From Roseivivax sediminis (GTDB taxonomy: Bacteria; Pseudomonadota; Alphaproteobacteria; Rhodobacterales; Rhodobacteraceae), in the NCBI RefSeq assembly GCF_900112685.1, contig NZ_FOMS01000022.1, forward strand, positions 1 through 40,471: a DNA stretch of 40,471 nucleotides, in the 5' to 3' direction. Every line of letters begins with the position of its first letter. The stretch's first letter is position 1. The translations under genes were made by a program, and so were the position numbers. The notes under the pieces are model-generated. The model was not told where the DNA came from. It did no database searches and saw only the letters and a program-made list of their open reading frames with translations. Shown here piece after piece: positions 1-12,029 of the stretch.

Positions 1-470
1 GCGCCGATCCGGGCGCAGGCGAGCATCGCGTAGGCCGCCTCGGGGATCATCGGCAGGTAGATGACGACGCGGTCGCCGCGCCCGACGCCGTGCTCCTTCA
101 GCACGTTGGCCATGCGGCAGGTCTGCTCGTGGAGTTCGCGGTAGCTGATGTGCTGCGCCGCGTCGCCGGGCTCGTCGGGCTCCCAGATGATCGCGGTCTG
201 ATCGCCGCGGGTCTCCAGGTGCCGGTCGATGCAGTTGGCGGCGACGTTCAGCGTGCCGTCCTCGAACCACCTGATCGCCACCGAGCCGTGATCGAAGTTC
301 ACGTCCTTGATCTTCGACGGCGCCTTGATCCAGTCCAGCCGCTTCGCCTCCTCGGCCCAGAACCCCTCGGGATCCTCCACCGACCGGCGATACATCTCCT
401 CGTAACGCGCCTCGTCAACATGCGCCCGCGACACCGTCGCTGCGCTCGGTTCGTAAACGCCGTCTTTCAT
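1..470 (-). CDS. acs: Acetyl-CoA synthetase, N-terminal part (cut by window edge)
   Basis: This is the first ~156 residues of an AMP-forming acyl-CoA synthetase; the rest lies beyond base 1. Reading back from the ATG at 468-470 gives the typical acetyl-CoA synthetase N-terminus, with the '[20 protein letters not shown]' stretch, then '[17 protein letters not shown]', '[12 protein letters not shown]' and the start of the adenylation core ('[17 protein letters not shown]'). The family activates acetate (and often propionate) to the CoA thioester through an acyl-adenylate in the cytoplasm. A GGAGGAG ribosome site sits just upstream at about 476-483. The gene follows livF by 82 bases on the same strand with no visible terminator, so it may be the last gene of the transporter operon. 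Propionyl-CoA synthetase cannot be excluded without the C-terminal half. Confidence 0.9.
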
Positions 471-552
471 GTCGAGCTCCTCCTCTTTGCCGCGAAAACG
501 CGCGGGCGACCCGGGGCGTTCCTGACGGCACCGACCACCGGCCGCGGCGCGG

Positions 553-1308
553 TCAGATCGCGAGGTATTCGGCCCGCAGGTCCGCATCGCCGAGCACCTC
601 GGCCGCGGAACCATCATAGACGATCGTACCGGTGTCGAGAATGATCGCGCGATCGGCCAGTTGCAACGCGCGGACGGCGTTCTGCTCCACCAGGATCGTC
701 GTCATGCCCTGTTCCTTGATATGGCGCAGCGTCTTCTCGATCTCGTCGACGATCACGGGGGCGAGGCCCTCGTAGGGTTCGTCCAGCAGCAGGACCTTGA
801 TGTCGCGCGCCAGCGCCCGGGCGATCGACAACATCTGCTGCTCGCCGCCCGAAAGGGTCACGCCCTCCTGCCGGCGGCGCTCGCCGAGCCGAGGGAAAAG
901 CTCGTAGAGACGTTCGAGGGACCAGCCGATCGGCGGCTGGATCTGCGCAAGTTGCAGGTTCTCCTCCACCGTCAGGCCGGGGATGATGCGCCGGTCCTCG
1001 GGCACAAGGCCGAGGCCCGCCTGCGCGGCCTCGTAGCTCTTCATCCGGTGCAGCGGCTGGTGGTCGAGCCAGATCTCGCCCTTCATCACCTGCGGGTTGT
1101 CGAGCCGCGCGATGGAACGCAGCGTCGTCGTCTTGCCGGCGCCGTTGCGGCCCAGAAGGGCGAGGATCTCGCCCTCGTGGACGTTGAAGCTGACGCCCTG
1201 AACGATGAAGCTTTCACCGTAATAGGAGTGCATGTCCCAGACCGAGAGGAAGGCCGGAGCGGTTTCCGCCTGGTTGGCGTGTCTGGAGAAATCGGGTTTG
1301 ACGTTCAT
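553..1308 (-). CDS. livF: Branched-chain-type ABC transporter ATPase (LivF-like)
   Basis: This 251-residue cytoplasmic ATPase subunit belongs to a HAAT-family (Liv-like) importer. It shows Walker A '[16 protein letters not shown]' near residues 50-66, a canonical signature '[15 protein letters not shown]', Walker B '[14 protein letters not shown]' and the switch histidine region 'TTILVEQN'. The last is typical of LivF, which ends in EQN rather than EHD. Length is normal (about 235-255), with a short N-terminal extension of about 20 residues. It sits 30 bases downstream of the second ATPase gene in one minus-strand operon. LivF pairs with LivG to power transport. Assignment as LivF-like is firm; the substrate is not known from sequence. 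Confidence 0.92.
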
Positions 1309-1338
1309 CGGCTCGTCCTTTCGTCGCGCGGGGGCGCC

Positions 1339-2094
1339 CTACGCGGCTTCGCCCAGATAGGCTTCCTTGACCTTCGGATGGCCCTTGATGTTCTCGGGCA
1401 CGTCCTCGACCAGCGGGGTCCCCTGCGCCAGCACGGTGATCCGGTCGGCGAGGGAGAACACGACATGCATGTCGTGTTCGATGATGCACATGGTGATGTC
1501 GCGCTTGTTCTTGATCGTCTTCAGAAGCTCGATCGTGTTGTTGGTGTCGGCGCGCGCCATGCCTGCGGTGGGCTCGTCCAGCAGCAGGAGTTTCGGGCGC
1601 TGGATCAGGCACATCGCCATCTCCAGCCGCCGCTTGTCCCCGCGCGAGAGAGAGCCGGCGTGAAGCTCGCGCTTGTCGAGCATGTCGACCTCGTCCAGCA
1701 TCTTCTCGGCCTCGCCGATCAGGCCGCGTTCCTGCGTGACACCTTCGAAGGCGTGCATCCGGAAGGCGCCGTCGCGCTTGGCGAAGAGCGGGATCATCAT
1801 GTTCTCGAACACCGAGAGGTCGCCGAAGATCTCCGGCGTCTGGAACACGCGGGAGATACCCATCTGGTTGATCTCGTAGGGTTTGCGTCCAAGCACGCTC
1901 CGACCCGCGAACATCACCGAGCCGGTGTCGGGGATGAGTTTTCCGACGAGGCAGTTGAGCAGCGTCGACTTGCCCGCGCCGTTCGGCCCGATGATCGCGT
2001 GGACACTGTTCTCTGCCACGCTGAGGTTCACGTCGCCGAGCGCCTGCAGCCCGCCGAAGCGCTTGTTCACGTCCTTGACGTCGAGGAGTCCCAT
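1339..2094 (-). CDS. livG: Branched-chain-type ABC transporter ATPase (LivG-like) with altered signature motif
   Basis: This 251-residue nucleotide-binding subunit partners LivF. Walker A is 'IIGPNGAGKSTLLN' (residues ~34-47), Walker B is 'LLLLDEPTAGMARAD' and the H-loop is 'IIEHDMHVVFSLADRI', a LivG hallmark. The C-terminus 'PKVKEAYLGE' is also typical. The signature motif reads LSRGDKRRLE instead of LSGGQ or LSYGQ, so the first glycine and the glutamine are replaced, and the sequence after Walker B (TAGMARADTN) is also unusual. This looks like a subfamily trait rather than decay, because everything around it is intact. It starts 12 bases downstream of livM. An asymmetric transporter with one weaker ATP site is possible (inference). 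Confidence 0.9.
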   Translation of the reverse strand: MGLLDVKDVNKRFGGLQALGDVNLSVAENSVHAIIGPNGAGKSTLLNCLVGKLIPDTGSVMFAGRSVLGRKPYEINQMGISRVFQTPEIFGDLSVFENMMIPLFAKRDGAFRMHAFEGVTQERGLIGEAEKMLDEVDMLDKRELHAGSLSRGDKRRLEMAMCLIQRPKLLLLDEPTAGMARADTNNTIELLKTIKNKRDITMCIIEHDMHVVFSLADRITVLAQGTPLVEDVPENIKGHPKVKEAYLGEAA

Positions 2095-2106
2095 GACGTG
2101 CGCTCC

Positions 2107-3306
2107 TTATTCCGCTGGGGTTTGCTGGGCCGCGCGTTCTTCGCTGCCGCGCTTGCGGCGGAAAAGGCGCCCGATGCGCTGGCCGCCCTCGACGAGGCCG
2201 CCGGGCAAGAAAATGACGACGAGCATGAACATCAGGCCGAGCGTCAGATGCCAGCCCTTTCCGACGAAGGGGTGGATGATCGCGACCACCGCGTTCTCCA
2301 GCCCGTCGGGCAGGAAGGCGAACCAGCCGTGCAGGACGTTGTCGTTGAGCTTGGAGAAGATGTTCTCGAAGTACTTGATGAAGCCGGCGCCGAGGACCGG
2401 CCCGATCAGCGTGCCGGCGCCGCCGAGGATGGTCATCAGGACGACCTCTCCCGACGCGGTCCACTGCATCCGTTCGGCGCCCGCGAGCGGGTCCATGGAG
2501 GCGAGAAGGCCGCCGGCGAGGCCGGCATACATGCCGGAGATCACGAAGGCGGCGAGCGTGTAGGGCCGGGCGTTGAGGCCGGTATAGTAGAGCCGCTGCT
2601 GGTTCGACTTCACCGCCCGTAGCATCATTCCGAAGGGTGAGCGGAAGATGCGGATCGACAGGTAGAAGGCGGCGAGCATGATTGCGGCGCACAGGTAGTA
2701 ACCGGCGGAGAACTGGAACTGCCACGGCCCGAGGTTGAGAATCTCCGTCGCCCGCATCTCCAGCCCGAAAAGGTGGGTGACGGGGATGGAGCCGTCCGCG
2801 GTGGCCGAGACGCCGAGGATGCGCGGATCGTCGAGCGCGATCTGCAGCCCGGTCTCGCCGTTGGTGATCGGAGTGAGGACCGAGTAGGCGAGCGCGAAGG
2901 ACATTTGCGCGAAGGCGAGCGTGAGGATCGCGAAGTAGATTCCCGACCGGCGCAGCGAGATGAAGCCGATGAGCAGCGCGAAGAGCCCGGCGACGATCAC
3001 CGACAGGATGATCGCGGGGATTACGTTCATCGTCAGCAGCTTGAACATCCAGACTGCGGCGTAGGAGCCGACACCGAGGAAGGCGGCGTGTCCGAAGGAC
3101 AGGTAGCCGGTGAGCCCGAAGAGGATGTTGAATCCGATGGCGAAGATGCCGAAGATCACGAAGCGCTGCATCAGGTCGGGATAGCCGGCGTTGAACTGCG
3201 CCAGCGAGCTGTCCGAGGGGAACGGGTTGAGCAGGAAGGGCGCGAGCAGGGTCAGCGCCGCGACCGCCGCGAGCAGGCCGAGATCTTTCTTTCCGAGACC
3301 GAGCAT
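2107..3306 (-). CDS. livM: Branched-chain-type ABC transporter permease (LivM-like)
   Basis: This 399-residue integral membrane permease has the LivM core motif '[21 protein letters not shown]' near residues 65-85, interrupted here at family-typical positions, and the coupling region '[33 protein letters not shown]'-like segment in the second half (only the key residues are meant). Several hydrophobic segments run across the protein. It ends in a long charged tail ([13 protein letters not shown]), and an acidic loop of about 60 residues around '[18 protein letters not shown]' follows the family pattern. The start ATG at 3304-3306 lies 4 bases after the livH stop, so the two are probably translationally coupled. 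It forms the pore with LivH in the inner membrane. Confidence 0.92.
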
Positions 3307-3310
3307 TGAT

Positions 3311-4342
3311 TTATTCCTCCATCACGCCCTTGCGGCCCATGAGCCCGCGGGGGCGCACCAGCAGCACGACGATGGCGACGACATAGATGATGATCTGATT
3401 GATCCCGGGAATGAGGTTGATGACCTGCGTCATCGACGCGAAACTCTCCAGGATGCCCAGCAGGAAGCCCGCGAGCACCGCGCCGGGCAGGGAGCCCATG
3501 CCGCCCACGACCACCACGACGAAGGACAGGACGAGGAAGTCCATCCCCATGTGGTAGTTGGGCGAATTGATCGGCGCGTACATGACCCCGGCGAGGCCCG
3601 CGACAGCCGCGGCGATGCCGAACATGATCGTGAAGCGCTTGTCGATATTGATGCCGAGAAGGCCCACGGTTTCGCGGTCGGCCATCCCGGCGCGCACGAC
3701 CATGCCGAAGGTGGTGAATTGCAGGAACGAGAAGACCGCGCCGATCACCAGCGCCGCGAAGGCGAAGTAGACCAGCCGCCAGTACGGGTAGATGATGACG
3801 TTGGGATCAAAGCCCAGCAGGACCCCGAAATCGAACGACCCGGTCAGCGCATCGGGCGCCGGGGTCGGGATCGGGTTCGCGCCGTAGAAGTACTTCACGA
3901 TCTCCTGCAGAACGATGGCGAGACCGAAAGTCACAAGGATCTGGTCGGCATGCGGGCGCTTGTAGAAATGCTTGATCAGCCCCCGCTCCATCACGAAGCC
4001 GATCAGGAGCATGACCGGGATCGAGAACAGGATCGCCAGAGGTACCGACCATTCTATGATGCCCGCGCCGACGCTTTCCCCGAACCAGGCGTGGACATAG
4101 GGCGTCTCCACCTCCATCGGGTTGCCGAGGAAGTCGGTGCGGCTGTCGTCGATGGTCACGTAGCTTGCCGACAGGATGCGCTGCAGCGTGACCGCGCAGA
4201 AGGCACCGATCATGAACAGCGCCCCGTGCGCGAAGTTGACCACGCCGAGCGTGCCGAAGATGAGTGTGAGGCCCAGCGCGATCAGCGCGTAGGCCGAGCC
4301 CTTGTCGAGCCCGTTCAAGGTCTGAAGGATGAGTGCGTCCAT
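3311..4342 (-). CDS. livH: Branched-chain-type ABC transporter permease (LivH-like)
   Basis: This 343-residue inner-membrane permease starts at [20 protein letters not shown]. That start was chosen over a longer open frame because the homology begins here. The classic LivH N-terminal block '[20 protein letters not shown]' is present, as are '[16 protein letters not shown]', '[15 protein letters not shown]', the coupling stretch '[20 protein letters not shown]' and the glycine-rich '[21 protein letters not shown]'. A 45-residue periplasmic insertion follows the third helix (around '[20 protein letters not shown]'), longer than in E. coli LivH. It is separated from the binding-protein gene by two hairpins. 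It pairs with LivM. Confidence 0.92.
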
Positions 4343-4364
4343 GCCCGGCCCCTGCGTGAGTGGC

Positions 4365-4432
4365 CGCAGGGTGCGCGGCGGCACCCTGCGATACGGTTGA
4401 TGCGAGAAGAGGAGGCGCGCGCCGGCGCCTCC
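4365..4432 (-). promoter_or_regulatory. Two intercistronic hairpins between binding protein and permease genes
   Basis: Two perfect inverted repeats lie in the 98-base gap between the binding-protein stop and the livH start. The first is CGCAGGGTG (4365-4373) with CACCCTGCG (4382-4390). The second is GGAGGCGC (4411-4418) with GCGCCTCC (4425-4432). Neither has a T-run, so they are not simple terminators. Such hairpins after a binding-protein gene commonly stabilise the upstream message so that binding protein outnumbers permease. That role is inferred from position. Confidence 0.6.
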
Positions 4433-4440
4433 GGCCCGGC

Positions 4441-5802
4441 TCAGGCGCCCGCGTTGCAGGATCCCAGGGAGCCGCCCGAGAACATCGGGTGATCGGGCTC
4501 GTAGGTGACCTGCTCGACCGGGGTCGCCTCGACGATCTCCACGAGGTCGAACTCGTCCTCGGGGTTCTCCTTGCCCCGCACCACGACCACGTCCTTGAAG
4601 CACTGGTGGTCGGCCGCGCGGTAGAGCGTCGGGCCGTTGCCGAGGCCGTCGAACTCGAAATCCTCGAGCGCTTCGGCAATCGCGCAGGGGTTGAACGATC
4701 CCGCGCGCGTCACCGCGTCGGCATACAGCAGCGTCTGCGCGTAGCAGGTGTGCGCCGCCTGGCTCGGCGGGAAGCCGTATTTCTTGCCGAAGGACTGCAC
4801 GAAGGCGTTGGTGCCCTTGTAGCGCTCGCCCAGCTGGTTCTCGATCTTCCAGTCCCAGTTCTGCGAGCCGGGGATGCCGGCGATGTTCTCGCCCGCGCCG
4901 CGCGCCATCAGCTCCGAATAGAGCGGCACGACGATCTGGAAATCCTTACCGTTGGCCTGCGCCTCGCGCAGACCGAACTGCACGGCGTTGGTGAGCGAGT
5001 TCACCATGTTGCCGCCGTAGTGGTTCAGCACCAGAACGTCGGCGCCCGATTGCAGCACCGGCGCGATGTAGGACGAGAAATCGGTCTGCGCGAGCGGGGT
5101 GAGCACGTTCTCCACCGTCTCCCAGCCGAGCGCCTCGGTGGCGGACTGGATGGATTCCTGCTGGCTCCAGCCCCAGGTGTAGTCGGCGGTCAGGTGATAG
5201 GCCTTGCGGTCGGTGCCGTAGAGCCCCTCGAGCACCGGGCCGAGCGCCGCGGCCGACATGTAGGCGTTGAAGAAGTGGCGGAAGCCGTTGGCCTTCTTGT
5301 CCTTGCCGGTGGTGTCGTTGGAATGCGTCAGGCCCGACATGAAGATCACGCCGGCCTCCTGGCAGAGGCCCTGCACGGCGATCGCGACACCCGAGGAGGA
5401 GCCGCCCGAGATCATCACCGCGCCGTCCTTCTCGATCATCGAGCGGGCCGAGGCGCGGGCGGCGTCGGATTTCGTTTGCGTGTCACCGGTGACGTACTCG
5501 ACCTTCTTGCCGAGAATGCCTGACCCGTCGAGGTTCTGCTCGGAGAAGGTCTGCATCATGCCGCCGTCGCCGCCGCCGTTCAGATGCTCGACGGCCAGCT
5601 CGAAGGCGCGCAGCTCGTCGGCGCCCTCGTCGGCATAGGGGCCGGTCTGGGGGACGTTGAAACCCAGCGTCACGGTGTCTCCGGTGGGGGCGTTGGTGAA
5701 ACCGCTCTCCTGGGCGCGCAGATAGGTCGGCAGCGCGAGACCGGCGCCCGCGAGCGCACTGGTCCTGAGCACGCCGCGGCGTGTCACATGGCGTTTGGTC
5801 AT
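4441..5802 (-). CDS. HAAT-family substrate-binding protein with Tat-type signal
   Basis: This 453-residue periplasmic binding protein belongs to the type I (Leu/Ile/Val-binding-like) fold and feeds the Liv-type transporter downstream. The N-terminus 'MTKRHVTRRGVLRTSALAGAG' carries twin arginines followed by a hydrophobic stretch and 'LPTYLRAQES', suggesting Tat export and cleavage near residue 30. The binding domain begins with 'TVTLGFNVPQTGPYADEGAD', the standard first strand and ligand loop. 'AVMISGGSSSGVAIAVQGL' and 'ADVLVLNHYGGNMVNSL' mark the two lobes. The ATG at 5800-5802 was chosen because an AGGGAGGA site lies 5-10 bases upstream and the signal starts there. The ligand is not identifiable; amino acids, amides and short-chain acids are all bound by this family. 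Confidence 0.9.
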   Translation of the reverse strand: MTKRHVTRRGVLRTSALAGAGLALPTYLRAQESGFTNAPTGDTVTLGFNVPQTGPYADEGADELRAFELAVEHLNGGGDGGMMQTFSEQNLDGSGILGKKVEYVTGDTQTKSDAARASARSMIEKDGAVMISGGSSSGVAIAVQGLCQEAGVIFMSGLTHSNDTTGKDKKANGFRHFFNAYMSAAALGPVLEGLYGTDRKAYHLTADYTWGWSQQESIQSATEALGWETVENVLTPLAQTDFSSYIAPVLQSGADVLVLNHYGGNMVNSLTNAVQFGLREAQANGKDFQIVVPLYSELMARGAGENIAGIPGSQNWDWKIENQLGERYKGTNAFVQSFGKKYGFPPSQAAHTCYAQTLLYADAVTRAGSFNPCAIAEALEDFEFDGLGNGPTLYRAADHQCFKDVVVVRGKENPEDEFDLVEIVEATPVEQVTYEPDHPMFSGGSLGSCNAGA

Positions 5803-6025
5803 GTAATCCTCCCTAAGGGTATCTTGTCGGCCGCGGGCTCCTCTTCCGCTGCGGCCGCAGGCACGTGATCCGTGCAAACACACTATGCGGGGGTGGCGGA
5901 AAACCGCGCAACAATGCGCTTGCCCCAAAGGCTTTTTCTGTAAACTTATGCACAGAGAGGGTGATCGAATTGTAAACTAATTATTCGGCGCTGCAGAAAG
6001 GCGCTGAGATGACAGGGGATTCGCG
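5803..6025. promoter_or_regulatory. Divergent control region with TGTAAACT direct repeats
   Basis: This 223-base gap lies between the transporter operon (leftward) and the scfR-type regulator (rightward), and it is visibly more A+T-rich than its flanks from about 5930 to 5990. An 8-base sequence TGTAAACT occurs twice in the same orientation, at 5939-5946 and 5971-5978, 32 bases or about three helical turns apart. A related TGCAAACA lies at 5873-5880. A regulator bound here could control both directions. The binding protein is not known; the adjacent ScfR protein is the natural candidate. Confidence 0.5.
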
Positions 6026-7315
6026 ATGGCTCGGGACACGCTGACCGGCAGCCGCATCCGCGAGCGGCGCATAATGGCCGGGATGAAACAGGCCGAACTC
6101 GCGCGTAAGGCGAGCATCTCGGCCTCCTATCTCAACCTGATCGAGCACAATCGCAGGAGAATCGGCGGAAAGCTGCTGCTCGACATCGCGCAGATCCTCG
6201 ACGTCGAGCCGGCGATCCTCACCGAGGGGGCCGAGGCGACGCTGATCGCCGGGCTGCGCGAGGCCGCCGCCCATGCGCGCGACTCGGGCGCGGAGATCGA
6301 ACGCATCGACGAATTCGCCGGCCGCTTTCCCGGCTGGGCCGACCTTCTGGCCGAAAGTCACCGCCGCATCGGCGCGCTGGAGCGCATGGTGGAGACGTTG
6401 TCGGACCGGCTCACCCACGATCCCCACCTCGCCGAGGCGCTGCACGAGATGCTCTCCACCGTGACGGCGATCAAGTCCTCTGCCGCGATCCTGGCCGAGC
6501 CCGGAGAGATCCCGCCCGACTGGCAGCGCCGGTTTCACCGCAACATCCACGAGGACAGCGCCCGGCTGGCGGAGACCTCGCGCATGCTGGTCGGCTATCT
6601 CGACGCCGCCGAGGACGCGTCCGCCGAAACCGCCGCGCCGCAGGAGGAGGTCGACGCCATTCTGGCAAGCGCCGGGTACCGCTTTGCCGCGCTGGAATCC
6701 GGTACGGCCGATCCTGCGGCGCTGGCGCGCGCGCTCGGCGCGGAGGCGTCCGGCACCGCCCGCGAGATGCTCTCCGCCGTCCTGGGCCGGTATGCCGAAG
6801 ATGCGCGCCGCGTACCGATGCCCGCGCTGCAGGAGGCACTGGCGGAGACCGGGCCCGAGCCCTTCGTGATCGCCGAGCGGCTGGGTACCGATGCGGCGCA
6901 GATCATGCGGCGGCTCGCCGCGCTGCCGGCGGAGGTCGCGCCGCCCATGGGGCTGGCGATCTGCGACGGGGCAGGGGCCCTGACCTACCGCAAGCCGCTG
7001 CCGGATTTCGCGCTGCCGCGCTTCGGAGCGGGCTGTCCGCTCTGGCCGCTCTATCATGCGTTGACGCGGCCGATGATGCCGCTGTCCGCGCCGCTGGCCC
7101 AGCCGGGGCGCGAACGCGGGCGTTTCGTCGCCCATGCCGTCGCCGTGCCGCGCGGCCCGCTCGTGCCGGGGGCGCCGCCGCTGTTCGAGGCGCATATGCT
7201 GATCGTACCTGCGGCGCCCGGCGCGGCGGAATCGCTGCCGGTCGGGGTGACTTGCCGGATCTGCCCGCGCGAGCGTTGCGCCGGACGGAGGGAGCCGTCG
7301 ATCATCGCCCGCTAG
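6026..7315 (+). CDS. XRE-family short-chain acyl-CoA regulator (ScfR/RamB/PccR-like)
   Basis: This 429-residue transcription factor has an N-terminal XRE helix-turn-helix (residues ~8-63, with 'ISASYLNLIEHNRRRIGGKL' as the recognition region) and a long C-terminal ScfR (DUF2083-type) domain. It ends with the family cysteine motif C-R-I-C-P-R-E-R-C near residue 410 and 'RREPSI'. Characterised ScfR members (RamB, PccR, MccR) sense acyl-CoA levels and control acetate, propionate or glyoxylate-pathway genes. AGGGG upstream of the ATG at 6026 supports the start. It is divergent from the transporter-acs operon, which it probably controls (inference). Which acyl-CoA it senses cannot be read from sequence. 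Confidence 0.85.
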   Translation: MARDTLTGSRIRERRIMAGMKQAELARKASISASYLNLIEHNRRRIGGKLLLDIAQILDVEPAILTEGAEATLIAGLREAAAHARDSGAEIERIDEFAGRFPGWADLLAESHRRIGALERMVETLSDRLTHDPHLAEALHEMLSTVTAIKSSAAILAEPGEIPPDWQRRFHRNIHEDSARLAETSRMLVGYLDAAEDASAETAAPQEEVDAILASAGYRFAALESGTADPAALARALGAEASGTAREMLSAVLGRYAEDARRVPMPALQEALAETGPEPFVIAERLGTDAAQIMRRLAALPAEVAPPMGLAICDGAGALTYRKPLPDFALPRFGAGCPLWPLYHALTRPMMPLSAPLAQPGRERGRFVAHAVAVPRGPLVPGAPPLFEAHMLIVPAAPGAAESLPVGVTCRICPRERCAGRREPSIIAR

Positions 7316-7355
7316 AGGCGGACCAGGCGCCGTGTGCCGGCACTGACGCCTTGTT

Positions 7356-7384
7356 TTGACAGGCCCCGTGCGATTGACCATAAC
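7356..7384 (+). promoter_or_regulatory. Candidate promoter of the two-component operon
   Basis: A perfect TTGACA (7356-7361) is followed after 17 bases by CATAAC (7379-7384), matching the sigma-70-type spacing used in alphaproteobacteria. It lies 100 bases upstream of the response regulator start, in the 169-base gap after the scfR-like gene. No terminator for that gene was evident in the gap. Confidence 0.4.
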
Positions 7385-7484
7385 TTGATCGGCAGGGCAC
7401 GGCGGCGGGGGAGGCCACCGGGCCCCGCGGCGCCCTCCGAGCCCGGGGTGCGATGTGCCGTTTGCCAGGGGAGGAGTGCCGTGC

Positions 7485-7856
7485 ATGACGAGAGAGATCC
7501 TGCTGATCGAAGATGAGCGCAACATCATCGAGGCGATCAGCTTCATCCTGTCGCGCGACGGCTGGACCGTCCGGACGCACTCGAACGGTACAGACGCGGC
7601 CGAGAAAGTGCGCAGCCTGCGCCCCGACGTGGTCATTCTGGACGTGATGCTGCCGGGGCGGTCGGGGTACGACATCCTGCGCGAGTTGCGCGGCGAGCCG
7701 GCCTTCGCCGATCTGCCGATCCTGATGCTGACGGCGCGCGGCCAGGCCCGCGACCGCGAGATGGCTGAATCGGCGGGCGTCAGTGCCTACATGACCAAAC
7801 CCTTCTCCAACAGCGAGATGCTCGACGCGGTCCGCGCGCTCGCCCCGGTGCCATGA
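7485..7856 (+). CDS. Receiver-only response regulator
   Basis: This 123-residue CheY-like receiver has no output domain. The acidic pocket is E9-D10-E11, the phosphoacceptor is D53 in 'VVILDVMLPG', T83 is the conserved switch residue in 'MLTAR' and K105 is in 'YMTKPF'. The ATG at 7485 was chosen over a start 30 bases upstream because GGGGAGGAG (7468-7476) is correctly spaced. It overlaps the next gene by ATGA, so the three genes 7485-10815 are translationally coupled. The partner is almost certainly the hybrid symporter-kinase two genes on. With no DNA-binding domain it must act by protein contact or pass phosphate to another protein. Confidence 0.9.
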   Translation: MTREILLIEDERNIIEAISFILSRDGWTVRTHSNGTDAAEKVRSLRPDVVILDVMLPGRSGYDILRELRGEPAFADLPILMLTARGQARDREMAESAGVSAYMTKPFSNSEMLDAVRALAPVP

Positions 7857-8131
7857 CCGAGGGCCGCCCGCCGCTGGTCTTCCTCGAACGGCGCAGCTAC
7901 CGCCAGCGCCGCGTGCGCGATGCCGCGCGGCTCCTTCCGGTCCTCGGGCTTTTCGCCTGGGGGGTGCCGCTTTTGTGGCCGCGCGGCGAGGCGGCACCGG
8001 GCACGGCGTCCGCGCTCGTCTATGTCTTCGCGGTCTGGCTCGGGCTCGTCGTCGCCGGCGCCTTGCTGTCGTTCCTCTTGTCCCGCGGGGATGTCGATGA
8101 CGCCCGCGAGGGCGGAGGAGATGCGCCTTGA
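7853..8131 (+). CDS. Small membrane protein coupled to the symporter-kinase
   Basis: This 92-residue protein has a basic N-terminal region (LERRSYRQRRVRDAARL) and two predicted membrane helices, about residues 25-42 and 50-76. It ends in an acidic, glycine-rich tail. It overlaps its neighbours at both ends: ATGA at 7853 and TTGA at 8128. No known domain was recognised. In pseudomonads a small coupled ORF (cbrX) precedes cbrA, and this gene occupies the equivalent place, but similarity between the two was not established. A role in assembly or control of the kinase is a guess from position. Confidence 0.75.
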   Translation: MTEGRPPLVFLERRSYRQRRVRDAARLLPVLGLFAWGVPLLWPRGEAAPGTASALVYVFAVWLGLVVAGALLSFLLSRGDVDDAREGGGDAP

Positions 8132-10815
8132 CCACGCTCAACGCGCTCGTTGCTGTGTGCCTGTCCTATGTCTTCTTCCTGTTCGTCGTGGCCTTCGTCG
8201 CCGAACGCCGGGCCGCGGCCGGCCGGATCCGCTGGCTGCGCTCGCCCATCGTCTACACGCTGTCGCTGTCGATCTACTGCACCGCCTGGACCTTTTATGG
8301 CGCCGTCGGCTCGGCGGTGCGAAACGGGTTGGAATACGTCGCCATCTATGTCGGACCGAGCCTCGTCATGCTCGGCTGGTTCTGGGTGGTGCGCAAGCTC
8401 GTTCGCATCGGCCGCTCGCAACGCGTCACCTCCATCGCCGATCTCGTCTCGGCCCGCTACGGCAAGTCCAACACGCTCGCCGTCTTCGTCACCATCCTCG
8501 CGGTCGCCGGCGTTACCCCCTACATCGCGCTCCAGCTGCAATCGGTGACGCTCAGCTTCGAAGTCTTCGGCGCCGACCTGGCGGGCGGACGGTTCGACCG
8601 GCCCCACACCGCGACGGCCCTATGGGTGGCGGTGGGCCTCGCGCTTTTCACGGTGATCTTCGGCACCCGCAACCTCGACGCCAACGAACGCCATCACGGC
8701 GTGGTCATGGCCATCGCGGTGGAGGCGGTGGTCAAACTGGTCGCGCTCCTGTCGGTCGGCGTCTTCGTCGTATGGGGGCTCTCGGGCGGCGTGACGGAGA
8801 CGCTGGCGCGCATCGACGCTTCCGAGCTCGGCACCTGGAACGTGGCCGGCGGGCGCTGGGCCGGCATCACCTTCCTGTCTGCGGCGGCGTTCCTGTGCCT
8901 GCCGCGGATCTTCCAGGTGCTGGTGGTGGAGGCGGCGGACGAATCGCACCTGCGCACCGCCAGCTGGGCGTTTCCGGCCTATCTCATGCTCATGTCGCTC
9001 TTCGTTGTTCCCATCGCTGTGGTCGGGCTCGACCTTCTTCCAGCGGGGTCCAACCCGGACCTCTTCGTGCTGACCGTGCCCCTCAGCCAGGGGCAGGAGG
9101 GGCTGGCGGTCCTGTCCTTCCTCGGCGGCTTCTCTTCGGCCACGTCGATGGTGATCGTGGCCGCCATCGCCCTGTCGACCATGGTGTCCAACCACATCGT
9201 AATGCCGATCTGGCTGCGCCTGACCGGTGGGGGGGCGAGCGTGTCGGGCGACGTGCGCCACATCGTCCTGACCGCGCGGCGGCTGTCGATCGCCGGCGTC
9301 GTGATGCTGGGCTATCTCTACTACGCCTTCTCGGGCGGCGGCGCCGCGCTCGCCACGATCGGGCTCGTCGCCTTCGCCGGCATGGCGCAGGTGCTGCCGG
9401 CGATGCTTGGCGGTATATTCTGGCGCGGTGCGACCCGCACCGGCGCCCTTGCCGGCCTCTCGGTCGGCTTCGCGCTCTGGCTCTACACGCTCTTTCTGCC
9501 GTCGCTCGGCCCCGGCGTCCTTCCTGTCGCGATGCTGGACGAAGGACCGCTCGGCCTGGCATTTCTGCGCCCCCAGGCGCTTTTCGGGATCGACGGACTC
9601 GACCCGCTCCTGCATGCGATCTTCTGGTCGATGTCGCTCAATGCCGGGGCCTTCTTCGTCGGCTCGGTGCTGAGCTTTCCGACCCCGCTCGAACGGCTGC
9701 AGGGGGCACAGTTCGTCAACGTTTTCCAGCATTCGCCCGGCCCGCGCAGTTGGGCGGGCCGAGTCGCGCAGACCGAGGACCTGATGGTCATGGCGCAGCG
9801 CATCCTCGGCGCGACCGAGGCAATGGCGCTGTTTCGCCGCGAGGCGCGCGCCCAGGGCGCCCGTGGCGATCTGCCCGAGCCGACGCCGCAATTCCTCGAA
9901 CGGCTGGAGCGGGAGCTGGCCGGTTCGGTGGGCGCGGCCACGGCGCACGCGATGATCGGCCAGATCGTCGGCGGTATGTCCGTGTCGGTGGAGGACCTGA
10001 TGGCCGTCGCCGACGAAAGCGCCCAACTCATGGAATACTCCGCCCGGCTCGAGGCGCAGTCGACCGAGCTTTCGCGCACCGCGCGGCAGTTGCGCGACGC
10101 CAATCTCAAGCTCACCCGCCTGTCTGTGCAGAAGGACGCCTTTCTCAGCCAGATCAGCCATGAGCTGCGCACGCCGATGACCTCAATCCGCGCCTTCTCG
10201 GAGATCCTGCGCGACAGCGGCCGGTTGGACGCCGGGGAACGGATGCGTTTCGCGTCCATCATCCATGACGAGGCGGTGCGGCTGACCCGGCTCCTGGACG
10301 ATCTGCTCGACCTCAGTGTGCTGGAGAACGGCAAGGTCAGCCTCGATATCCGCGCGGCCAGACTGTCGGAGGTGATCGACCGCGCCGTGGCCGCCGCCGA
10401 TGCCGGGGCTGAGGACGGCGCGCTGACGATCCGCCGTGACCGCAGCGACGAGGATGTGACCATCGTCACCGACCTCGACCGGCTGGCCCAAGTCTTCATC
10501 AACCTCGTGTCGAATGCGCGGAAATACTGTGAGGCCTCCGCGCCGGCACTGACCATCCGGGTGCTCACGGAGTCTGACCGTGTGCTCGTCGACTTCATCG
10601 ACAACGGGGAGGGCATCGGCCCCGAGGCGCGCGACACGATCTTCGAGAAATTCAGCCGCGTGGCCGAGCAAAAGGCGGGCGGCGCGGGGCTGGGGCTCGC
10701 CATCTGCCGGCAGATCATGGCGCGGCTCGGCGGAGACATTTCCTACCTGCCGGGGCAGGGCGGGGCCGCCTTCCGGGTCGAGATCGCCGAGGCCAGCGCA
10801 ATGGCCGCGCAATGA
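8128..10815 (+). CDS. Histidine kinase with sodium:solute-symporter sensor domain (CbrA/CrbS-like)
   Basis: This 895-residue membrane protein fuses a transporter-like sensor to a kinase. Residues ~1-520 form an SSS/SLC5-type 12-13-helix domain ('YCTAWTFYGAVGSAVRNGLE', 'SVTLSFEVFG', 'GGFSSATSMVIVAAIALSTM'). Residues ~550-645 look like a STAC linker ('LERLERELAGSVGAATAHAM'). A short coiled segment follows, then HisKA with H678 in 'SQISHELRTPMTS', and an ATPase domain with 'NLVSNARKY', 'DNGEGIGPEARD' and 'GGAGLGLAI'. No PAS domain is visible. The start codon is TTG at 8128, overlapping the upstream stop, with GGAGGAG before it. Relatives sense or transport nutrients such as histidine, proline or acetate and control carbon use. 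The position next to acs and ScfR points to acetate or other short-chain acids (inference). Confidence 0.92.
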   Translation: MTTLNALVAVCLSYVFFLFVVAFVAERRAAAGRIRWLRSPIVYTLSLSIYCTAWTFYGAVGSAVRNGLEYVAIYVGPSLVMLGWFWVVRKLVRIGRSQRVTSIADLVSARYGKSNTLAVFVTILAVAGVTPYIALQLQSVTLSFEVFGADLAGGRFDRPHTATALWVAVGLALFTVIFGTRNLDANERHHGVVMAIAVEAVVKLVALLSVGVFVVWGLSGGVTETLARIDASELGTWNVAGGRWAGITFLSAAAFLCLPRIFQVLVVEAADESHLRTASWAFPAYLMLMSLFVVPIAVVGLDLLPAGSNPDLFVLTVPLSQGQEGLAVLSFLGGFSSATSMVIVAAIALSTMVSNHIVMPIWLRLTGGGASVSGDVRHIVLTARRLSIAGVVMLGYLYYAFSGGGAALATIGLVAFAGMAQVLPAMLGGIFWRGATRTGALAGLSVGFALWLYTLFLPSLGPGVLPVAMLDEGPLGLAFLRPQALFGIDGLDPLLHAIFWSMSLNAGAFFVGSVLSFPTPLERLQGAQFVNVFQHSPGPRSWAGRVAQTEDLMVMAQRILGATEAMALFRREARAQGARGDLPEPTPQFLERLERELAGSVGAATAHAMIGQIVGGMSVSVEDLMAVADESAQLMEYSARLEAQSTELSRTARQLRDANLKLTRLSVQKDAFLSQISHELRTPMTSIRAFSEILRDSGRLDAGERMRFASIIHDEAVRLTRLLDDLLDLSVLENGKVSLDIRAARLSEVIDRAVAAADAGAEDGALTIRRDRSDEDVTIVTDLDRLAQVFINLVSNARKYCEASAPALTIRVLTESDRVLVDFIDNGEGIGPEARDTIFEKFSRVAEQKAGGAGLGLAICRQIMARLGGDISYLPGQGGAAFRVEIAEASAMAAQ

Positions 10816-10886: not shown

Positions 10887-12029
10887 ATGACCGACAGCGC
10901 TGCACAGAAGGTGCTCAGCCGCAAGGCGCAAGCCGCGCGCCGCGCGATCGAGGCGCAGGGCATGTCGGTGGAGAAGGCTCTGCGCCGCGCGCTTGCCCGC
11001 ACGGCCGAAGAATCTTGGAATCTCGCGCTGATCGCGCGCAACGCCCGCCTCTCTGCCGCCGATCAGGACGACACTACCGCGCGGCTTCAGGAAGGGGACC
11101 TGATCCTCCTGCTCGACGGGTCGGAGGGCGCGCTGGGCTTCGCCACCCTCGATCGCCAGGCCGTGACCGCGCTGGTTGAGGTGCAGACCCTCGGCATCGT
11201 CACGGACATGCCGCTCGACGATCGCCGCCTCACCCCCACCGACGCCGCCATCGCGGCGCCGCTGGTCGAAGGGGCTCTGGGCCGGCTTACGGGCTACCTC
11301 GCGCAGGACCCGGTCGGCGCGCAGGTCGACGGTTTCCGCTTCGGCGCGATGGTCGAGAACGCGCGCATCGCCGCGAACCTCCTCGCCGCGCCGCGCTACC
11401 GTGTGCTGGAGGCCGACATCGACCTCGGCGGCGGCCTGCGCCAGGGGCGGATCGTGCTGGCGCTGCCGGACCGCAAGGTCATCCCCACCGCACCGGAGGG
11501 GGAAGAAGACGCGCCGCCGCGCCATGCCGACCTGATGATGACGTTGCCCGCTCAGATCGATGCCGTGCTCTGCCGCCTGCGTCTTCCCTTCGCCGAGGCG
11601 CAGAAGCTCGAACCCGGCGCGCTGCTGCCGTTGCCGGCGGGCGTGCTCGACCATGCGGAACTCGTGGCGGGCAACGGGCACCGCGTGACCGGCGGACGCC
11701 TCGGCCAGGTGAACGGGCAGCGGGCGATCCGCGTGACCGAGGCCACCGGCGCGCGGCCCGCCGGCACCGATCCCGCCCCGTTTCAGGCCGGCGGGGCGAT
11801 GGACGAGGACGAGGGCCACATGACCGAAGCGCCGGAAGTCGATGCCGAGGCTGCGCCGTTTTCGCTCGAACTGCCGTCCGAGACCGGCGTCGAGGAAGAC
11901 GACTTGCCCGAGCTGCCACCGCTCGATTTCGACATGGCGGAGATCGGCGGCGCAGAAGACGACGATGACGATTTCCCGTCTTTCGCATCCGCGATGGACG
12001 GGCTCGACCTGCCGGACGGAACGGACTAG
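10887..12029 (+). CDS. FliM/FliN-like motor switch protein (SpoA domain), solitary
   Basis: This 380-residue protein has an N-terminal half resembling the FliM middle region ('EGALGFATLDRQAVTALVEV', then 'DRRLTPTDAAIAAPLVEGAL'). Next comes a SpoA (FliN-type) surface-presentation domain around residues 220-285 ('DAVLCRLRLPFAEAQKLEPG', 'GRLGQVNGQRAIRVTE'). The C-terminal ~85 residues are strongly acidic and probably disordered (a D-D-D-D-D-F run). FliM and FliN form the C-ring that switches flagellar rotation. No other flagellar gene is in the window, so this is a stand-alone paralogue of the kind seen in Rhodobacteraceae. It ends 3-4 bases into the convergent gene. Function beyond the fold is not assigned. 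Confidence 0.75.
   Translation: MTDSAAQKVLSRKAQAARRAIEAQGMSVEKALRRALARTAEESWNLALIARNARLSAADQDDTTARLQEGDLILLLDGSEGALGFATLDRQAVTALVEVQTLGIVTDMPLDDRRLTPTDAAIAAPLVEGALGRLTGYLAQDPVGAQVDGFRFGAMVENARIAANLLAAPRYRVLEADIDLGGGLRQGRIVLALPDRKVIPTAPEGEEDAPPRHADLMMTLPAQIDAVLCRLRLPFAEAQKLEPGALLPLPAGVLDHAELVAGNGHRVTGGRLGQVNGQRAIRVTEATGARPAGTDPAPFQAGGAMDEDEGHMTEAPEVDAEAAPFSLELPSETGVEEDDLPELPPLDFDMAEIGGAEDDDDDFPSFASAMDGLDLPDGTD

Follow-up and report, generated by a model that had tools for sequence, protein, structure and literature searches.

A predicted DHp domain in an ScfR-like regulator encoded beside an SLC5 histidine kinase, a lone receiver, and a Liv-type importer in Roseivivax sediminis

Regulators of the ScfR family (PrpR/MccR, RamB, and PccR) combine a helix-turn-helix (HTH) region with an ScfRs domain and four cluster cysteines, and passages of PMC10370305 describe paired boxes as common for ScfR operators. 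In the SLC5/STAC kinases of the systems CbrA/CbrB, CrbS/CrbR, and RpuS/RpuR, an SLC5 sensor is fused to a HisKA-type kinase. In the Spo0F-Spo0B pair, a lone receiver is read out through a dimerization and histidine phosphotransfer (DHp) domain. DivL, the counterpart of DivK, is presented in part of PMC4211667 as a repurposed kinase that senses the state of a response regulator. Here we compare with these systems a locus on contig NZ_FOMS01000022.1 of Roseivivax sediminis (G000:C22; 40,471 bases), the whole of which is referred to below as the window. The locus encodes an ScfR-like regulator, a lone receiver, a 92-amino-acid (aa) membrane protein, and an SLC5 kinase, divergently (+) from a run (-) consisting of a Liv-type importer and acs. 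We consider it rather probable that these genes form a transport-control module in which a signal would pass from the kinase to the receiver, from there to a DHp-bearing regulator, and finally to the importer.

The regulator shares with the ScfR family the HTH and ScfRs domains, the four cysteines, and candidate paired operator boxes, but it differs in its predicted DHp insert and in the replacement of three coenzyme A (CoA) contacts in its short form. The kinase has the fused SLC5 sensor and the Na2-site lysine of the described SLC5/STAC kinases, whereas the response regulator is a lone receiver and not a LuxR-type protein, and the histidine pocket of CbrA differs at three positions. The resemblance to DivK-DivL and Spo0F-Spo0B is one of proposed mode of action, namely, a lone receiver acting via a DHp bundle; unlike in those systems, the bundle here is predicted in a protein that binds DNA and has no kinase catalytic domain. 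Given the DivL precedent, we count the whole as a variant of two-component signaling. Passages of PMC10370305 mention a Paracoccus protein of the ScfR network, Pden_1785, that clusters with a two-component system and was set aside there. No description of a DHp domain in an ScfR or XRE regulator was found among the open-licence papers listed, as judged by their titles and abstract openings.

The first lead to the DHp domain was a match of regulator residues 117 to 187 to the NCBIfam model of the CreC kinase (E 1.4e-6, far under the model cutoff), and the second was that, in relatives, long frames ~3 kb downstream weakly resembled the regulator. When the regulator segment was aligned by hhalign with the DHp of 119 SLC5 kinases with a recognized H-box, the match reached 99.1% (E 1.6e-18; 61 columns), whereas two other regulator segments used as controls gave 0.1% and 0.3%. 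The insert comprises ~65 to 70 residues and is absent from ordinary ScfRs, which match the DHp-type profile in two pieces (~1 to 132 and 197 to 513) and leave the DHp stretch unmatched. The possibility that canonical ScfRs already contain a DHp was rejected on these two-piece matches and on the gap seen in both canonical proteins aligned. The profile match crosses the insert in 27 of 289 genomes of the class, and the N-terminal piece reaches ~231 in 8 more, giving a total of at least 35. Among the matches listed for 299 genomes of the phylum, no insert was seen outside the class, and five genomes outside the class that matched at E ≤ 1e-60 did so with the C-terminal piece only. In the regulator of locus L194, the segment still reads as a near-ordinary H-box.

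The fold model of the regulator (mean predicted local distance difference test [pLDDT] score, 81.9) contains helices at residues 133 to 157, including His140, and 164 to 199, which is the expected hairpin. By profile similarity, the two-helix hairpin, and a predicted phospho-accepting histidine, the segment thus has the defining features of a HisKA-type DHp. Several observations weigh against this assignment. The regulator of the window has no HisKA match in Pfam (at E values up to 10, 7 of the 34 aligned regulators have a HisKA entry, the best being 3.5e-8), the DHp part of the fold model is moderately confident (block means, 49 to 84), and there is no kinase among the best 50 Foldseek matches of the model, which are led by PrpR (E 3.8e-8).

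Conservation of the segment was assessed in 128 distinct regulators, a set without L066 to L068 (not DHp forms), sequences with internal stops, lengths outside 380 to 600 aa, and identical regulators. His140 is kept in 124 of them, position H+4 is S, T, or N in 126 (S being the commonest), and position H+1 is E or D in 104 and R, A, G, Q, K, or S in 24. DHp domains dimerize, and the segment could be a mere dimerization or spacer bundle, with the iron-sulfur (Fe-S)/ScfR part running the regulator and the kinase-receiver pair acting elsewhere. Such a bundle would be consistent with the failure to keep E at H+1 outside the family, with the loss of the histidine in four regulators (Y in L062, Q in L191, and F in L195 and L198), and with L061, L189, and L191, where a receiver and kinase were not found near the regulator. 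However, it needs no histidine, yet both the histidine and the S/T/N at H+4 are kept almost throughout, and it leaves the lone receiver with no other candidate output in the neighborhood. We regard it as unlikely. Alternatively, the regulator could act on the receiver, the DHp being a phosphatase or a sink for receiver-phosphate and gene control a side effect. E/D at H+1 and S/T/N at H+4 resemble the phosphatase motif of HisKA kinases, but the 24 departures at H+1 and the preference for S over T or N at H+4 fit it poorly, and the receiver would still be without an output; this alternative appears distinctly improbable.

The four His-less regulators bear on the proposed receiver-regulator link. 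A receiver is not directly downstream in three of the four, versus 8 of 122 His-bearing regulators (Fisher p 0.0019, uncorrected for kinship; L083 and L139, with no downstream sequence, were left out). Among these eight, L059, L089, and L111 are probably gene-calling or frame problems, and L065 and L193 have the receiver on the other strand. L062 argues against the link, as it lacks the histidine and still has an adjacent receiver and kinase. Regulator-receiver covariation (mutual information with average product correction; 117 loci) lent the link no support: columns with almost no variation and the kinship of the loci governed the result, and the positive control of kinase with receiver was not clean either.

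The source of the DHp was traced with a profile of 30 regulator DHp segments run through seven genomes. After the regulator, the best match was the DHp of an SLC5 kinase in all seven, and in six it lay near the regulator. In R. sediminis, this match had an E value of 2.0e-15, compared with 1.0e-4 for the next frame; the smallest gaps to the next frame were seen in G064 (2.8e-13 versus 2.2e-6) and G220 (3.2e-18 versus 5.2e-11). In G037, the best frame is on another contig and matches an SLC5 kinase over 922 residues with 64% identity. The simplest reading of these similarities is that the DHp was captured from this SLC5 kinase lineage. Since it would then derive from the lineage of the partner kinase, the same receiver is likely to be the partner of the regulator as well. 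No second relative of the SLC5 domain of the kinase was detected in the R. sediminis genome at E ≤ 0.001.

The receiver is a lone domain without an output in all 132 loci (91 to 147 aa). D10 and D53 are present in every one of them, position 83 is T or S, and K105 is found in 131 (with one gap). Kinase residues were counted in 123 of 131 kinases, those longer than 850 aa, and all nine residues checked are invariant. The intact residues of both proteins, together with the lone state of the receiver, suggest an apparently active pair without a conventional output. A first-pass annotation of the window had likened the pair to CrbS/CrbR; the kinase does belong with the SLC5 kinases, but the receiver is not comparable to the LuxR-type CrbR. 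Kinase residues 4 to 461 match the solved SLC5 kinase CbrA (PDB 10ed, CbrXA; E 5e-65), with 34% identity over 441 aligned residues. Passages of PMC13022988 describe how a lysine occupies the Na2 site of CbrA and name the residues of the CbrA histidine pocket. The lysine is invariant in the 123 kinases, and pocket residues Y51, W55, Y75, and F406 are kept, but S53 and A56 are both replaced by T in all 123, and F248 is replaced by S in 103 and by A in 20. These changes make it likely that the ligand differs from that of CbrA.

The first-pass annotation had overlooked the 92-aa protein (7853 to 8131) as well as the DHp domain of the regulator. Two hydrophobic segments were identified in 96 of 105 such proteins, and no PDB match was obtained up to E 10. 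As in CbrXA, a small two-helix protein is encoded just upstream of the kinase (PMC6591292 and PMC13022988, in part), a likeness by position, the sequence having been compared to the PDB only. According to passages of these reports, CbrX was copurified with CbrA (PMC13022988) and cbrX and cbrA are translationally coupled (PMC6591292). In the window, the receiver gene and the 92-aa gene, as well as the 92-aa gene and the kinase gene, overlap by four bases, and gaps in this set are ≤15 bases in 84 of the 96 loci measured.

The ScfRs domain was found in all 34 aligned regulators at E values up to 10, and the best solved relative is PrpR (E ~1e-9). Passages of PMC6765138 list H319, R338, K347, K410, K217, and F240 among the CoA contacts of PrpR and C363 and C447/C450/C455 as its cluster cysteines. 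Four contact positions (H319, R338, K347, and R348) were mapped, with two canonical ScfR proteins as references, onto 103 short (Rhodobacteraceae) forms, window protein included, and 25 long forms, of which L059 is probably a frame artifact. In the short forms, H319 is replaced by Arg in 100 and is His in 1, R338 is mostly I, V, or M, and K347 is mostly F, Y, or L, whereas R348 is kept in 89; the window regulator has R, I, and Y at the first three positions and retains R348. The long forms keep H319 in 19, R338 in 23, K347 in 24, and R348 in 19 cases. As judged from these alignments, proteins of other families have both the DHp and the CoA contacts, and the short form has lost three of the contacts but not the cysteines. 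The replacement of H319, R338, and K347 means that the internal acyl-CoA sensor proposed in the first-pass annotation does not follow for the window regulator, in which the M78 (IrrE-like) domain also has no match; only 4 of 34 members gave a score for this domain. Of the 103 short forms, 101 to 102 retain any given one of the four cysteines, and the regulator is probably an Fe-S protein. In L053 and L057, the C-terminal cysteine motif of the regulator is lost wholly or partly, suggesting that some lineages may do without the cluster.

A candidate operator, situated between the genes for the binding protein and the regulator, consists of two TGTAAA boxes. The spaced pair has its only exact match in the genome at 5939 to 5976, whereas a control pattern has none. 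Where a binding protein gene stands divergently, 60 of 104 relatives have an exact pair with a distance of 31 to 33 bp (0.005 in shuffles, which preserve base composition only, the loci sharing ancestry); where there is no such gene, 3 of 24 do. A chance origin was rejected on the basis of the uniqueness in the genome and of the 60 relatives, subject to the post hoc choice of the box. Paired boxes being typical of ScfRs, the regulator is the likely binder, although the spacer of the Paracoccus RamB operator is 18 bp and the boxes here are 32 bp apart, start to start. Some points weaken the case for an operator: the box was picked after the window had been viewed; with one mismatch allowed, the R. 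sediminis genome gives 1 match versus 1 for the control, and G038 gives 48 matches; and the one-mismatch pattern occurs at the regulator in 7 of 9 genomes of the genus, with no match at the locus in G001 and G008.

The neighborhood was compared in three sets of loci. The same-family set comprised 33 loci (L033 to L063, L069, and L070), several of them truncated where a contig ends. In 32 of these (all but L061), regulator, receiver, and kinase occur together; the importer adjoins the regulator in 24, and acs lies 3' of LivF in 15 and immediately adjoins the regulator in one further locus (L057). In the second set, the best 80 of 570 relatives, which is biased to close relatives, 76 have the full set of regulator, receiver, 92-aa protein, and kinase; among the 51 loci of this set with ~10 kb of upstream sequence, the binding protein was found in 42 and acs in 16. 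The third set contained 20-kb stretches at 20 loci from other families, out of 25 newly found by a profile scan with the DHp-type regulator (of the 27 loci crossing the insert, G037 and G043 were already among the loci collected, and G258, G296, G077, G100, and G231 were left out). The importer is adjacent in 17 of these 20 loci (the exceptions are L193, L194, and L200), and both receiver and kinase lie within the stretch in 18 (the exceptions are L189 and L191); in L195 and L198, acs has the importer genes on one side and the receiver-kinase pair on the other. The importer-regulator-receiver-kinase neighborhood thus recurs across alphaproteobacterial families, and the arrangement is not due to chance. 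Against the proposed link between regulator and importer stand nine same-family loci in which no importer adjoins the set of regulator, receiver, and kinase. The module is old, and acs is its loosest, optional member. The first-pass annotation had proposed a module of acs, the importer, and the regulators. All of the genes that it named do stand together in the window, with acs as its first 156 codons only, and their recurrence was confirmed for the importer, regulator, and kinase. It holds only sometimes for acs, so the separation of these genes in relatives, which was to speak against the module, does occur in part.

The first-pass annotation had also suggested a short-chain acid, amide, or acyl compound as the importer substrate. 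The Liv-type component set (K, H, M, G, and F) is complete, but none of the NCBIfam equivalog models for LivF, LivG, LivH, and LivM was matched at its cutoff. The fold model of the binding protein (pLDDT, 76) gave 769 Foldseek matches at E ≤ 0.001, of which the best (3i09 and 4maa) have ~20% identity, and the best 50 include binders of amino acids, urea, amides, and aromatic acids. Naming the ligand from the fold was dropped since the matches span many ligand classes, and the literature search returned nothing on the substrate. A Liv-like importer of Phaeobacter reportedly has a lactate phenotype in public fitness data, to which no weight is given here. In three loci from other families (L065, L193, and L194), an SSS-type symporter gene divergent to the regulator replaces the Liv-type importer. 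This fits a small acid, but the symporters score below every curated cutoff, the general model for sodium/solute symporters included, so that a small carboxylate is plausible and unproven. Considering acs in part of the loci, the SLC5 sensor, and the SSS-type substitute, we put the chance that the substrate is a short monocarboxylate or a close analogue at about even. The missed Liv equivalog cutoffs and the low identity to solved binders argue against plain Leu/Ile/Val. It is nevertheless quite conceivable, if somewhat less so, that the importer serves ordinary amino acids or some other unrelated solute, with acs as a bystander: amino acid binders are among the Foldseek matches, and acs was not found in 35 of the 51 loci with ~10 kb upstream. 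Yet the identity to solved binders is low and urea, amide, and aromatic acid binders match too, acs again adjoins the importer in the distant L195 and L198, and a symporter stands in for the importer in the three loci named above.

Under the transport-control reading, the SLC5 kinase, with its small two-helix neighbor, would monitor a substrate at the membrane and phosphorylate the lone receiver. The receiver would dock on the DHp of the regulator and either alter DNA binding directly or hand the phosphoryl group to His140. The regulator, presumably acting at the TGTAAA pair at 5939 to 5976, would then set the expression of the importer, and of acs where it is in the same run, whichever sign this control may have; the regulator gene itself lies downstream of the same boxes. 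We propose more tentatively that a transcription factor took a DHp from the lineage of its partner kinase and became the terminal histidine acceptor, or a stoichiometric docking target, of a lone receiver, giving the order His (kinase), Asp (receiver), and His (DNA-binding protein). The proteins of other families might then integrate the acyl-CoA level with a membrane signal, whereas the Rhodobacteraceae form would have lost the CoA input and kept that of the kinase. The coordinates of the features are given in Table 1.

Table 1. Features of the R. sediminis locus (positions in the window)
Feature	Position	Strand	Evidence or remark
acs, first 156 codons only	3..470	-	ACAS_N and AMP-binding above Pfam cutoff; best NCBIfam models are acetate--CoA ligase, partial
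LivF-type ATPase	553..1308	-	ABC_tran; among the NCBIfam matches listed, none at curated cutoff
LivG-type ATPase	1339..2094	-	ABC_tran
LivM-type permease	2107..3306	-	BPD_transp_2
LivH-type permease	3311..4342	-	BPD_transp_2; start is an in-frame ATG chosen by the analyst
Periplasmic binding protein of importer	4441..5802	-	Peripla_BP_6, 224.5 bits
Candidate operator, two TGTAAA boxes 32 bp apart	5939..5976	+	Sole exact match of the spaced pattern genome-wide
ScfR-like regulator, 429 aa	6026..7315	+	HTH_3 (42.6 bits) and ScfRs (42.0 bits), both above Pfam cutoff
Regulator domain layout			HTH, residues 11-64; predicted DHp insert, ~133-199; ScfR C-terminal part with C337, C410, C413, C418
DHp segment used for profiles, regulator residues 120-197	6383..6616	+	His140 codon, 6443-6445
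Lone receiver, 123 aa, without output domain	7485..7856	+	Response_reg, 92.8 bits; D10, D53, T83, K105
92-aa membrane protein, two hydrophobic segments, CbrX position	7853..8131	+	No Pfam/NCBIfam family
SLC5 (symporter-type) histidine kinase, 895 aa, TTG start	8128..10815	+	HisKA and HATPase_c

The acs gene is truncated, as it runs off the contig end at the start of the window. Its last 105 codons were matched at two other contig ends (the end of G000:C12 and the start of G000:C15), which are identical over 326 bases, indicating that a repeated stretch of acs was probably the point at which the assembly was interrupted. The gene directly 3' of the kinase gene (10887 to 12029, +) encodes 380 aa, with a match to the flagellar C-ring domain FliMN_C (38.9 bits), and frames like it in size and position 3' of the kinase, the match being one of size and position only, were seen in L106, L107, L119, and L129. 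In the Ruegeria locus L107, from which the importer is absent, a protein with PAS and LuxR-type (GerE) domains is encoded divergently from the regulator (9269 to 9805, -), and a similar frame is present in L119. In L044, L046, L048, L050, and L054, the set lies 3' of a codirectional run that appears by eye to contain an NMT1/THI5-type importer and hydantoinase-like genes. A typical Rhodobacteraceae locus (L082) was also identified in record JAFKDC010000037.1 (26,343 bases, as G010:C37), which is titled Enemella evansiae, an actinomycete; the record is therefore probably mislabelled or contaminated.

Lone receivers are often without a known output, and a DHp within a DNA-binding protein would here be a specific, testable candidate for one. 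Domain capture of this kind would offer a concrete route by which a metabolite-sensing regulator may be rewired to a membrane kinase, and the proteins form an apparent series from the ordinary ScfR through ScfRs with a DHp and CoA contacts to ScfRs with a DHp but without those contacts. In addition, a widespread and uncharacterized importer is placed in a regulatory setting, with a short list of candidate substrates.

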